Assembly: GCA_009773055.1 (NCBI GenBank)
Contig: WOUW01000008.1
Location: forward strand, 1 to 64,000
Length of the DNA: 64,000 nt
Reading direction: 5' to 3'
Source: Paracoccaceae bacterium
Lineage (GTDB): Bacteria > Pseudomonadota > Alphaproteobacteria > Rhodobacterales > Rhodobacteraceae
Part shown: piece by piece, positions 10,171 to 53,145 of the stretch
How positions within the stretch are numbered: the stretch's first letter is position 1
Layout of the letters: every line of letters begins with the position of its first letter
Program-made: the position numbers and the translations under genes
Notes under the pieces: model-generated
The model's input: only the letters and a program-made list of their open reading frames with translations
Databases searched by the model: none
Told to the model about the DNA's origin: nothing

Positions 10171-10247
10171 GTTACCAAATCCCTAACGCCCGCATCCAAC
10201 CCTTTGATTTCCCTTGCATCCGAAACCTGCCCACGCGCGGGCACCCC
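10171..10247 (-). repeat. 3'-proximal structured repeat element, copy 1 (downstream of ade)
   Basis: Minus-strand GGGGTGCCCGCGCGTGGGCAGGTTTCGGATGCAAGGGAAATCAAAGGGTTGGATGCGGGCGTTAGGGATTTGGTAAC starts immediately after the ade stop; alignable with copies at 35238 and 53070. Confidence 0.75.
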
Positions 10248-32342: not shown

Positions 32343-32647
32343 GGTCGATTCGACGCGAACGGTCTGCGTTGCACGGCCTTTCTTTCCGGAACACGCCAGA
32401 AAGACGCGCGGAAGACGGGTGGAAGACGCTTACCCTTTACGAAACCTTGCCAATTAACGCCCGTTCCCAAGCACTTGGCTGGCGGCTGAGGACCCCTTGG
32501 CCCACCCGTTCGTCCCCCTCCAAACACACCTTCAGAATCGAGAACAGCGACACGACGAGCGACCCCGTGAAGCCCCCCGGTTGACAAGCCCTCACCTTCC
32601 CCCACATGTTGCCCCGCCATTTGCCGGGCGCGGGAGTTTCACGAAAT

Positions 32648-35237
32648 ATGCCAGTCGTTGTCGTCGAATCCCCCGCCAAGGCCAAGACAATAAACAAGTA
32701 TCTCGGCCCGGACTTCGTCGTCCTCGCCTCCTACGGCCATGTCCGCGACCTGCCCGCAAAGGACGGATCAGTCGACCCCGAGAACGGGTTCGACATGCTT
32801 TGGGAAGTTGCACCCGAATCAAAAAAGCACATCCGCGCCATCACCGAGGCCTTGAAGACTGACGACACCCTGATCCTTGCCACCGACCCGGATCGCGAAG
32901 GCGAGGCGATCAGCTGGCACTTGAGGGAAGCCCTGCAAGGCTCTCTGAAAAAAGGGAAAAAAGTCGCCCGCGTGACCTTCAACGCGATCACCAAAGACGC
33001 GGTGACCAAGGCGATGAAGGAACCGCGCGACATCGACACGCCGCTCGTCGAAGCCTATCTCGCCCGTCGCGCTCTGGACTATCTGGTGGGCTTCACGCTT
33101 TCCCCCGTCCTCTGGCGCAAACTTCCGGGCGCGAAGTCCGCAGGCCGCGTGCAATCCGTCTGCCTCCGCCTGATCGTTGAGCGGGAAATGGAGATCGAGG
33201 CCTTCAAGGCCCAGGAATACTGGACCGTCAAGGCGGTCTTCCGCACCCCGAGGGGGCAAGAGTTCGAGGCCGGCATGGTCACCCTTGGCGGCAAGAAGCT
33301 GACCAAGTTCGATATCCCTACCGCCACGGCCGCCGAGCTTGCTGTTCAGGCCGGAAAATCCCGCGATTTCAAGGTTCTGGCGGTGGAATCGAAACCTGCG
33401 GCCCGCAATCCCTGGCCGCCCTTCATGACTTCGACCCTTCAGCAAGAAGCGAGCCGGAAGTATGGCTTGGGCGCCAAACAGTGCATGAATGCAGCGCAAC
33501 GCCTGTATGAGGCGGGGCATATCACCTACATGCGGACCGACGGCATCGACATGGCCCCCGAAGCCGTGATGGCGACGCGCGGCGAAATCGACAAGCGGTT
33601 CGGCAAGGCCTACGTTCCGGATTCTGTACAAGAACAAGGCCAAGAATGCTCAGGAAGCACATGAATGCATCCGGCCGACCGACATGGGCGTCGGGCCCGA
33701 TAAAATCCGGGTCGAGGACGACCAGCGCAAGCTTTACGACCTGATCTGGAAACGCACCATCGCCAGCCAGATGGCCGCGGCTCGGCTAGAGCGGACGGCG
33801 GTCGACATCACCTCGCCGGATGGCCAGGTCGGGTTCAGGGCCAACGGACAGGTCGTTCTTTTTGACGGATATCTCAAGGTCTACGACCAGGGCCGCGATG
33901 ACCGGCAAGATGGCGACGAAGACGAGGAAGGCCGCCTGCCGCAACTGATGCAGGGCGAGGCTCTGGACAAAGGCGCTGTCACCCCGGACCAGCATTTCAC
34001 GCAGCCCCCGCCGCGCTATACCGAAGCGACGCTGGTGAAGCGGATGGAAGAGCTGGGGATCGGGCGACCGTCGACCTATGCCTCGATTCTGACCACGATC
34101 GTCGACCGGGAATATGTCCGCAAGGACAAGAATCGCCTGTTCCCGGAAGACAAGGGGCGGCTCGTGACGGCTTTCCTGTCGAACTTCTTCCACCGCTATG
34201 TTGAATACGACTTCACCGCCGACCTTGAGGCCGAACTGGACGACGTTTCGGCCGGAGACCGCGATTACAAGGACGTGCTGACCCGGTTCTGGCGGGATTT
34301 CAGCGCGGCGGTGGCCGAAACGGCTGACCTGCGGATCGGCGAGGTGCTGGAGAAACTGGACGAATTCCTCGCTCCCCATCTTTACCCGGCGCGGGCAGAT
34401 GGTAGCGACCCGAGGGTCTGCCCGACCTGTGGGTCCGGGCGTCTTCACTTGAAGACCGCGCGGTCGGGCGGGGCTTTCATCGGCTGCGGCAACTATCCGG
34501 AGTGTCGGTATACCCGGCCCTTGGCGGGGGATGCCGAGTCAGTGGCCTCGGATGGGCGCATCCTGGGGCAGGATGAAAACGGGGTGGAGATCAGCCTGCG
34601 CGCGGGCCGGTTCGGCCCATACGTCCAGCGGGGCGAGGCGTCGGAGGCCAATCCGAAGCCGGACCGGGCGAGCCTGCCGAAGGGGTGGACGCCGGATGGG
34701 CTGACGCTGGAACGGGCATTGGCGCTGTTGTCCCTGCCGCGCGAGGTGGGCAAGCACCCGGAAGATGGGGTGCTGGTTGAGGCCGGGATCGGGCGGTTCG
34801 GGCCCTATGTGAAGCATGGGTCGGTCTATGCCAACATTCCGGACGTGGAGGAGGTCTTCACCATCGGGATGAACCGGGCGATGGAAGTGCTGGCTCAGAA
34901 GGCCACGCGGGGCGGAAGGGCGGCTCCGGCGGGGCCGCTTCGGACCCTTGGGGCGCATCCGGACGGGGGTGAGGTCCAGGTGATGCCGGGCAAATACGGG
35001 CCCTATGTGAAGTGGGAGAAGGTCAACGCGACCCTGCCGAAGGGGGTGGAGCCTGAGGCGGTCACGCTGGAGGAGGCTCTGGTTCTGATCTCCGAGAAAG
35101 CCGGGAAGTCGGGGGGCAAGAAGAAGGCTGCGCCGAAAAGGGCGGCCGCACCGAAGGCTGCGGTGGCCAAGAAGGCTGCCCCGAAGAAGGCGGCAGCGAA
35201 GAAGGCTCCGGCGAAAAAGGTTGCCGCGAAGGCTTGA
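32648..35237 (+). pseudogene. topA: DNA topoisomerase I, reading frame interrupted near 33628 (frameshift or assembly error)
   Basis: Frame 1 32648-33664 (MPVVVVESPAKAKTINKYLGPDF ... GKAYVPDSV) and frame 2 continuing through KNKAKNAQEAHECIRPTDMGVGPDK... to 35237; together they make a complete TopA with zinc-finger and Lys/Ala tail. Confidence 0.9.
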
Positions 35238-35314
35238 GGCTGTCCACGGTGGGCAGCCGAGGCCAGTCCTGCAAAATCAACGGCTTGGCCGTGGACATTT
35301 ACCGGATCTTAACA
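35238..35314 (+). repeat. 3'-proximal structured repeat element, copy 2 (downstream of topA)
   Basis: GGCTGTCCACGGTGGGCAGCCGAGGCCAGTCCTGCAAAATCAACGGCTTGGCCGTGGACATTTACCGGATCTTAACA directly after topA TGA; outer arms TGTCCACGG (35241-35249) and CCGTGGACA (35289-35297). Confidence 0.75.
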
Positions 35315-35345: not shown

Positions 35346-35394
35346 AAATTCCTTACTCAAGGAATTTTCCAAGAATCTTACCTGAAATTCTTGG
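35346..35394. terminator. two consecutive hairpins between convergent topA and choV
   Basis: AAATTCCTT-ACTC-AAGGAATTT (35346-35367) and CCAAGAAT...ATTCTTGG (35369-35394). Confidence 0.65.
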
Positions 35395-50942: not shown

Positions 50943-53069
50943 ATGACGGACCTGAAGGGATGGGAGGCGCTGGCCTCGAAAGAGTTGAAGGGCAAGGGCC
51001 CGGACACGCTTAACTGGCAGACGCTGGAAGGGATCACGGTCAAACCGCTGTATACCGCTACCGATGTGGAGGGTCTTCCGCAGATGGGTGAGATGCCCGG
51101 TGTGGCACCTTTCACGCGGGGGGTGCGGGCGACGATGTATGCCGGGCGGCCCTGGACGATCCGGCAATATGCGGGGTTTTCCACCGCCGAGGAGTCGAAT
51201 GCGTTCTACCGGAAAGCGCTCGCGGGGGGGCAGCAGGGGGTGTCCGTGGCCTTCGATCTCGCGACGCACCGGGGCTATGACAGCGACCATCCGCGCGTGG
51301 TGGGGGATGTGGGCAAGGCGGGGGTGGCGATTGATTCCGTGGAGGACATGAAGATCCTCTTCGACGGTATCCCGTTGGAAAAGATCAGCGTTTCCATGAC
51401 GATGAACGGGGCGGTGATCCCGATCCTGGCGTCTTTCATCGTGGCGGGGGAAGAGCAAGGGGTGGCGCGGGCGGACCTGTCGGGGACGATCCAGAACGAC
51501 ATCCTGAAGGAATTCATGGTGCGGAACACCTACATCTATCCGCCCGAGCCTTCGATGCGGATCATCGCGGATATCATCGAGTTCACTTCGGCCGAGATGC
51601 CGAAGTTCAACTCGATCTCGATCAGCGGCTACCACATGCAGGAGGCGGGCGCGAACCTCGTGCAGGAACTGGCCTTCACGCTGGCGGATGGGAAGGAATA
51701 TGTCCGGACTGCCATCGAGCGGGGGATGGATGTCGACGACTTCGCGGGACGGCTCTCGTTCTTCTTCGCCATCGGGATGAATTTCTTCATGGAAGTGGCG
51801 AAGCTGCGGGCGGCGCGGATGCTTTGGCACCGGATCATGGACGGGTTCGGAGCGAAGAAGACGTCGTCGATGATGTTGCGGACGCATTGCCAGACCTCGG
51901 GGGTCAGCTTGCAGGAGCAGGACCCCTACAACAACGTGATCCGCACGGCCTATGAGGCGATGGCGGCGGTGCTTGGGGGGACGCAATCACTGCACACGAA
52001 CGCGCTGGACGAGGCGATTGCGCTGCCCACGGAGTTTGCGGCGCGGATCGCGCGGAATACGCAGTTGGTCCTGCAGGAGGAGACGGGGATCACCCATGTT
52101 GTCGATCCCTTGGCGGGGTCCTACTATGTGGAGAGCCTGACCAACCAGCTGGCCGAAGAGGCTTGGAGGCTGATCGAGGAAGTCGAGGCGATGGGGGGCA
52201 TGACCAAAGCGGTGGCCTCCGGCATGCCGAAGCTGCGGATCGAAGAGTCGGCGGCCCGGCGGCAGGCGATGATCGATCGGGGGGACGAGGTGATCGTCGG
52301 GGTCAACAAGTACCGCAAGGACAAGGAAGACCCGATCGACATCCGGGACATCGACAATGGGGCGGTCCGTGAGGCTCAGGTCGCGCGGCTGAAGTCGGTG
52401 CGGGCTGGCCGCGATGAAGTGCGGGTGCAGGCGGCGCTGGCCGAGTTGACGCGACGGGCGGGCGAAGGCGGCAACCTTCTGGAAGCGGCGGTGGAGGCGG
52501 CTCGGGCACGGGCCTCGGTCGGGGAGATATCGGACGCCATGGAAAAGGTATTCGGGCGGCATCGGGCCGAGGTTAAGACCCTCGCAGGGGTCTATGGCGC
52601 GGCCTATGAGGGCGACGCGGGGTTCGAGGCGATCCAGCGGGATGTGGAGGCTTTTGCCGAGGCCGAGGGGCGGCGGCCGCGGATGCTGGTCGTGAAGATG
52701 GGGCAGGACGGGCATGACCGAGGGGCGAAGGTGATCGCGACGGCCTTCGCGGACATCGGGTTCGATGTGGATGTGGGGCCCTTGTTCCAGACCCCGGAGG
52801 AAGCGGCGCAGGATGCCATCGATAATGATGTGCATGTGATCGGGATTTCCTCCCAGGCGGCGGGGCACAAGACGCTCGCCCCGGTGCTGATCGAGGAGCT
52901 GAAACGCCGCGGGGCGGGGGATATTCTGGTGATCTGCGGGGGGGTCATTCCGCAGCAGGACTATGACTTCCTGAAGGGGGCCGGGGTGAAGGCGATCTTC
53001 GGGCCGGGGACCAACATTCCGGCGGCGGCGAAGGAGATCCTGGACCTGATCCGGGCGGCGCGGGGGTAG
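50943..53069 (+). CDS. mcm: methylmalonyl-CoA mutase
   Basis: 708 aa; [52 protein letters not shown]12-binding [31 protein letters not shown]. Confidence 0.96.
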
Positions 53070-53145
53070 GCTGCCCGCGCGTGGGCAGCTTTTCGACCCC
53101 TTGGAAATCAATGGGTTGGCTGTGGGCATTCAGGGTTTCTTAACC
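53070..53145 (+). repeat. 3'-proximal structured repeat element, copy 3 (downstream of mcm)
   Basis: GCTGCCCGCGCGTGGGCAGCTTTTCGACCCCTTGGAAATCAATGGGTTGGCTGTGGGCATTCAGGGTTTCTTAACC directly after the mcm TAG; aligns with copies at 10171-10247 (-) and 35238-35314. Confidence 0.78.

Follow-up and report, generated by a model that had tools for sequence, protein, structure and literature searches.

BIME-1 elements of E. coli consist of REPs together with an IHF site (PMC2817692), and RIBs lie at the 3' ends of transcription units, as Boccard and Prentki (1993) are cited in PMC2817692. In E. coli, a share of REPs is found within 15 nt of a stop codon, and REPs at this distance are reported to stall ribosomes (PMC12306157). 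IHF bends DNA and has the consensus WATCAANNNNTTR (PMC10380432). CGTC REPs carry an unpaired CGTC tag, a stem of 8-9 bp and a CCA-like tail, and occur mostly as head-to-head dimers; their description makes no mention of Rhodobacter, Paracoccus or Roseobacter (PMC3733652).

The stretch of DNA analyzed here (the window, 64 kb) comes from a Rhodobacteraceae bacterium of the Tabrizicola group and contains three sequences that apparently belong to a so far undescribed family of DNA elements ~75 letters long. A reading made earlier from the letters of the window, the sequence-only reading, had placed three similar sequences after mcm, topA and ade, close to the stop codon and oriented with the gene. 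Our searches located them at 53067-53145 (+), 35236-35314 (+) and 10248-10170 (-), respectively; all three begin 2-4 nt past the stop and lie on the strand of the gene. We consider it very probable that the family consists of 3'-end elements that unite a palindrome with an IHF site.

Covariance model R1 was trained on 27 copies, the three of the window included, and it assigns E-values, rough because calibration was short, of 3.4e-30 (mcm copy), 1.1e-18 (topA copy) and 7.3e-28 (ade copy). With filters off, R1 detected no fourth full copy across the 64-kb window, the three known copies all being training members. The mcm copy has a TAG stop (53067-53069) at its edge. Its palindrome, CTGCCCGCGCGTGGGCAG at 53071-53088 (+), comprises hairpin arms 1 and 2 on the evidence of sequence and covariation, and is followed by a predicted IHF site, AATCAATGGGTTG at 53106-53118 (+), to be compared with the published consensus (PMC10380432). 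The genus-specific block GTGGGC (53122-53127, +), which the sequence-only reading called a third arm, is conserved and does not covary with arm 1; the tail, TTCA-N7-TTAACC at 53129-53145 (+), is recognized by its spacing.

The other two copies have the same layout and are backed by orthologous copies. Behind the TGA stop of topA (35235-35237) are the palindrome GGCTGTCCACGGTGGGCAGCC at 35238-35258, the predicted IHF site AATCAACGGCTTG at 35275-35287 and the tail TTTA-N7-TTAAC at 35298-35313, all on the + strand. On the - strand, the TGA stop of ade (10250-10248) is followed by the palindrome TGCCCGCGCGTGGGCA (10228-10243), the predicted IHF site AATCAAAGGGTTG (10197-10209) and the tail TTAG-N7-GTAAC (10171-10186). 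Domain searches support the predicted gene names: the gene upstream of the mcm copy has a B12-binding domain at its end, that upstream of the topA copy has topoisomerase domains, and the adenine deaminase gene upstream of the ade copy has an Adenine_deam_C domain. The topA gene appears split into ORFs at 32606-33664 and 33684-35237 (span 32606-35237), and its orthologs in most of the genus are single open frames of ~860-970 aa; the split may be genuine or may result from an assembly frameshift.

Distribution and position relative to genes

The sequence-only reading depended on the existence of further copies. R1 found ~70 full-length copies in the source genome (a 2.26 Mb assembly that is 59% complete), a density of ~30 per Mb. 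The core pattern AAATCAANGGNTTGG (15 letters, at most one mismatch) occurs at 32 sites in this genome versus 0 for the reversed control, and most of these sites belong to a full element with its parts in identical order. Copies were present in 32/32 genomes of the genus searched with R1. The genus is Tabrizicola, the matches that bear names being T. thermarum and T. aquatica; most genomes have 25-120 each, four have at most 6, and the detected numbers span 1 to 121. In Tabrizicola and its relatives, a notable part of 3' intergenic sequence consists of the element.

A second, broader model, R2, was trained on copies from several genera and has matches in 28 of the 396 genera sampled across Rhodobacteraceae, a figure that may omit genera whose palindromes have diverged; its match numbers per genome in the family and class draws are to be read as "at least." Among 385 genomes of the class, R2 produced, besides the source genome, two marginal single matches only, neither convincing. 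One locus in another family (L373, genome G694) is a lone hairpin-TTTT-IHF-core (TACCCCCGGGAGTGGGGGTATTTTGAAACTCAATGAAATCAATGGGTTG) that keeps the 26.5-bp spacing described below, possibly by chance. A search of Rfam 15 yielded no family above the gathering cut-off, and no match even when E-values up to 10 were admitted. No paper was retrieved by a literature text search for the palindrome strings, and no element match by a plasmid search; one match lies in a viral contig.

The predicted position bias behind stop codons is pronounced. In the source genome, 44/70 copies begin within 15 nt after the end of a sense ORF, with a median of 2-3 nt, as do 32/42 copies in genus-mates (63-76% in the genus versus 5% for random positions). 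In genomes of other genera, copies within 15 nt of a stop number 15/25 (G074), 8/13 (G189), 11/24 (G087) and 2/10 (G108), so stop-adjacency is strong and not universal. All three kinds of stop codon precede elements, and the letters ahead of the stem vary. Between a quarter and a third of the copies have no nearby sense stop, and some are reversed between co-directional genes or antisense to both neighbors. Genes were called with a codon-usage script, and individual assignments may be wrong.

Elements are located at gene ends rather than at promoters or a single origin. At element ends, the ratio of convergent to co-directional downstream neighbors is 47:25; for the other gene ends, taken where the gap is at least 60 nt, it is 60:139. 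This preponderance of convergent downstream genes argues against a promoter within the element (TTGGCT-N18-TTAACC). Classical terminators downstream of elements are so rare in Tabrizicola that they have no discriminating power. Downstream of the topA element, two terminator-like, A/T-flanked hairpins, AAATTCCTT...AAGGAATTTT and CAAGAAT...ATTCTTGG, lie at 35347-35390 and are conserved in some genus-mates. At G000 loci (L095, L060 and L233 among them), a short repeat with a GCAA-loop stem, GGGGGCCGCAAGGG(CC), occurs in intergenic flanks, sometimes immediately before the element.

Among readable Tabrizicola genomes, ~16/29 retain the element after mcm, ~21/28 after topA and ~16/26 after ade. At mcm loci that lack it, other terminator-like repeats occupy the place in several genomes. 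At four such loci (L181, L182, L183 and L184), a different repeat, GAGTATTTGAAAAAAGAGCA...TGCTCTTTTCAAAAATACTC, follows the stop and represents another dispersed 3' element.

Architecture, pairing and the predicted IHF site

From 5' to 3', the stop codon is followed by a palindrome of ~16-20 bp, a variable part of ~17 nt, the block (G)AAATCAAnGGnTTG, 10 nt, and the tail TTNA-N7-TTAAC. The variable part contains a short T-run, with T in 50-66% of copies at three positions; in Tabrizicola, the 10 nt between core and tail include GYGGGC, the supposed third arm. The palindrome differs from genus to genus (GCGTCCGAGCTCGGACGC, TGTCCCACGGTGGGACA, GTGTCCCACGATGGGACAC, GTCCCATGCATGGGAC and CCTGCCCGAGCTCGGGCAGG). 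The first half of the tail is degenerate at its third letter, and GTAA or TCAA frequently takes the place of the second half. In some genera, tails have additional features (copies L063-L154): the tail of G087 bears its own inverted repeat, CGGATTCACGATCCG, and that of G074 a copy of a palindrome half-site, TTGGAC...GTCCGAG.

The spacing of these parts is rigid. In four data sets, the palindrome center lies 26.0-27.0 bp from the IHF site in ~142 of 160 copies, and the distance from the IHF site (R) to the tail TTNA is 10 bp in 133/160, counts that carry a bias because the R1 and R2 searches favor the modeled spacing. In most copies, the distance from the center to W is 26.5 bp if the palindrome is even and 26.0 bp if it is odd. 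Both spacings recur in most of more than 20 further genera, each represented by single copies. In the genus of G176 (L067, L076 and L083), the IHF core and tail are retained, and the upstream part (GGCTTCCCCCTGTGTTACAG) and spacing differ.

The hairpin formed by the palindrome has been maintained through compensatory change. In 50 cross-genus copies it is 89% paired, with a covariation of 0.348 versus 0.125 after shuffling; this value was reached in 0/500 shuffles and is far above slid controls. In orthologous topA copies, none or hardly any of 2000 shuffles did as well at the three outer pairs, with a bias in that the register was picked by best pairing. When 101 distinct Tabrizicola copies were held in a fixed register, arms 1 and 2 covaried at three outer pairs (0/5000 shuffles each), whereas arms 1 and 3 showed no covarying pair (668/5000 shuffles or worse). 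A weak signal for arms 1 and 3 at 27 copies (18/500) was gone with this larger set. An initial covariation count on 27 copies was without power. Where arms 1 and 2 have switched to GCGCC/GGCGC, arm 3 remains GYGGGC. The proposal that pairing is kept despite sequence change, and thus reflects a selected structure, therefore withstands the covariation check against shuffles and slid controls. However, arms 1 and 3 do not change together as had been claimed; the compensating arms were misassigned, the alternative fold of arm 1 with arm 3 is not supported, covariation being absent in the 101 copies, and in place of two alternative folds there is a simple palindrome of arms 1 and 2.

Beyond the hairpin, no consensus RNA fold emerged, RNAalifold yielding 2 pairs. 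Within it, G-U pairs slightly exceed A-C (25:18 and 31:19, or 56:37 overall). Because this excess is slight, the letters of the hairpin cannot separate selection on RNA from selection on DNA.

The conserved middle is a predicted IHF site. The sequence AATCAAnGGnTTG fits every defined position of the consensus, and 33/70 copies of the source genome match it exactly; the remainder are one or two letters off (for example, GATTTCAA). The IHF-like core is conserved across genera. A GG within the N4 of the consensus is conserved more than the consensus requires. Genes for the IHF beta subunit were found in 4/4 element-bearing genomes tested. The sequence-only reading, correct in proposing a selected, structured and repeated 3'-end element and mistaken about covarying arms and alternative folds, had listed a protein site among the possibilities, which suits the fit of conserved AAATCAANGGNTTGG, a predicted site, to the consensus; the fit itself and the rigid spacing it had missed.

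In IHF-DNA structures, the bend center is near W. The palindrome, ~26 bp away, and the tail, ~31 bp away, would therefore be on opposite sides of the bend, and bending by IHF would presumably bring them adjacent. A DNA complex with helical phasing predicts a spacer with variable letters and fixed length. The IHF-consensus core and the fixed 26.5-bp and 10-bp spacings thus make a DNA nucleoprotein element likelier than one that acts as RNA only.

Proposed role and alternatives

We lean toward the view that this is a dispersed Rhodobacteraceae 3'-end element that works like RIB/BIME-1, with an RNA hairpin and an IHF-folded DNA knot serving together as a transcription-unit boundary; the function at transcription-unit ends we infer from position only. 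IHF would bind the middle and bend the DNA sharply, and the palindrome and tail, roughly symmetric about the bend, would come to lie next to each other in a compact nucleoprotein knot. Once transcribed, the palindrome would also fold as an RNA hairpin directly past the stop codon. Knot and hairpin together would form the boundary, at which RNA polymerase coming out of the gene is stopped or attenuated, most of all where genes converge, and the mRNA 3' end would be left capped by the hairpin. Counting against this view are the copies that deviate from the IHF consensus, the extra conservation of GG within its N4, the copies that have no sense stop close by, and the bias of the R1 and R2 searches toward the modeled spacing. 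A bolder version, about which we are rather doubtful, is a dedicated IHF-dependent termination or boundary system in which IHF bends the DNA behind stops at ~100 genes per genome and, with palindrome and tail, halts RNA polymerase where a terminating ribosome would disturb a plain intrinsic terminator. Such a system might include a second protein, perhaps bound to palindrome and tail and co-evolving with the palindrome of each genus.

The elements also have a history of copying. Two copies on a single contig (C82:40636, +, and C82:30904, -) are identical at 75/79 positions with flanks at background, a second pair is identical at 74/79, and a subfamily has the common spacer GTGGRGGCCGCAAAGGATTCC. 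The 94-95% identity of these pairs between flanks that are unrelated, together with the spacer-sharing subfamily, indicates that the element is also copied as a unit, via mobility or gene conversion. At the topA locus, the element is missing in G192, whose sequence aligns, starting 28 nt past the stop, with that of G017 starting 95 nt past the stop. These observations, and the range of 1 to 121 detected copies per Tabrizicola genome, are in keeping with a family that is mainly a selfish or non-autonomous mobile repeat (REP/MITE-like), one that uses its IHF site and palindrome to be copied itself and is merely tolerated behind genes. We consider this unlikely, because orthologous copies persist across the genus with compensatory hairpin changes, the plasmid search found no match, and the sharp edges are equally explicable by gene conversion among copies. 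The Y1/RAYT transposase (PF01797) is absent from 9 carrying genomes (control positive), which argues against a RAYT-driven REP.

Two further explanations are improbable in our estimation. Ordinary intrinsic terminator hairpins, with incidental downstream blocks, would account for the short T-runs after the hairpin and for the greater proportion of elements (8/76 versus 5/199 other gene ends) that satisfy a strict terminator rule. However, 8/76 is also the full extent to which elements combine a GC hairpin with a strong U-tract, in keeping with the earlier remark that this is not a textbook intrinsic terminator. Conservation of the downstream blocks and of their spacing exceeds that of any T-run, the palindrome is near-invariant within some genomes while spacer letters vary there, and topA has the other terminator-like hairpins downstream at ~35347-35390. 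The hairpin also begins 0-5 nt past the stop, and the E. coli test system outlined in PMC4824070 showed almost complete repression of a terminator located several bp past a gene, which makes a plain terminator less likely. An RNA-level 3'-UTR element, either an mRNA stabilizer or a ribosome-stalling, stop-proximal REP with AAATCAA... read as RNA, would suit the sense orientation and the slight G-U excess, and by analogy with REPs (PMC12306157) the stop-proximal hairpin could stall ribosomes. This explanation is countered by the weakness of the G-U preference, the lack of an RNAalifold consensus beyond the hairpin and of an Rfam match, and the copies antisense to both neighbors; a spacer of fixed length and variable letters is also easier to explain as DNA.

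Very improbable is a cell-cycle or regulatory DNA site with the tail acting as a CtrA site alongside IHF. The CtrA box is TTAA-N7-TTAA, and the tail has the same spacing, but position 3 of its first half is degenerate, its second half is frequently GTAA or TCAA, and elements lie at gene ends whereas CtrA sites (TTAA-N7-TTAAC) are usually in promoters. IHF and CtrA sites do occur together in alphaproteobacterial origins, as Brassinga (2002) is cited in PMC2877005.

Comparison with described repeats

The Rhodobacterales RNA motifs HRC-8-4 and uORFC-8-2 (PMC8632094) are located at cco operons and cysS and hence do not fit. Like the small mobile repeats with IHF sites, as far as these are portrayed in PMC2229807, the element is a small non-autonomous repeat with a (predicted) IHF site; it differs in lying at stop codons, and neither the long terminal inverted repeats nor the target duplication was seen. 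GTAG REPs associated with RAYTs are likewise short palindromes that occur in tens to hundreds of copies and for the most part lie downstream of ORFs. In contrast, the element has neither an unpaired GTAG tag (GTAG at some copies includes the TAG stop) nor a PF01797 protein, and it has an additional IHF block and tail. Integron attC sites have complementary GTTRRRY/RYYYAAC ends, which are missing here. The CGTC REPs (PMC3733652) resemble the element as alphaproteobacterial palindromes without a dedicated transposase, and some element genera show CGTCC at the palindrome edge. However, CGTC is inside the paired stem in the element, copies are single rather than head-to-head dimers, and there is no CCA tail.

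The element appears, by analogy, to work like RIB/BIME-1: both combine palindromes with an IHF site (predicted here), are dispersed in many copies, and are located at transcription-unit 3' ends. RIB/BIME-1 has two inverted REP units, whereas the element has one palindrome and a TTNA-N7-TTAAC tail, with no inverted E. coli-type REP units flanking the IHF site. Its sequence is unrelated, its 26.5/10-bp spacing is rigid, it was found in Rhodobacteraceae only, and no RAYT transposase was found. Because of the single palindrome and tail, the unrelated letters and the strict spacing, we do not file it as a RIB/BIME-1 member. The rigid geometry invites a structural model, and the many genus-specific palindrome variants are natural test material. 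Genomes in which a single clean class of element occupies ~100 gene ends would allow a direct test of what RIB elements are for. With the element described here, palindrome-plus-IHF repeats of the RIB/BIME-1 type now reach into an alphaproteobacterial family.
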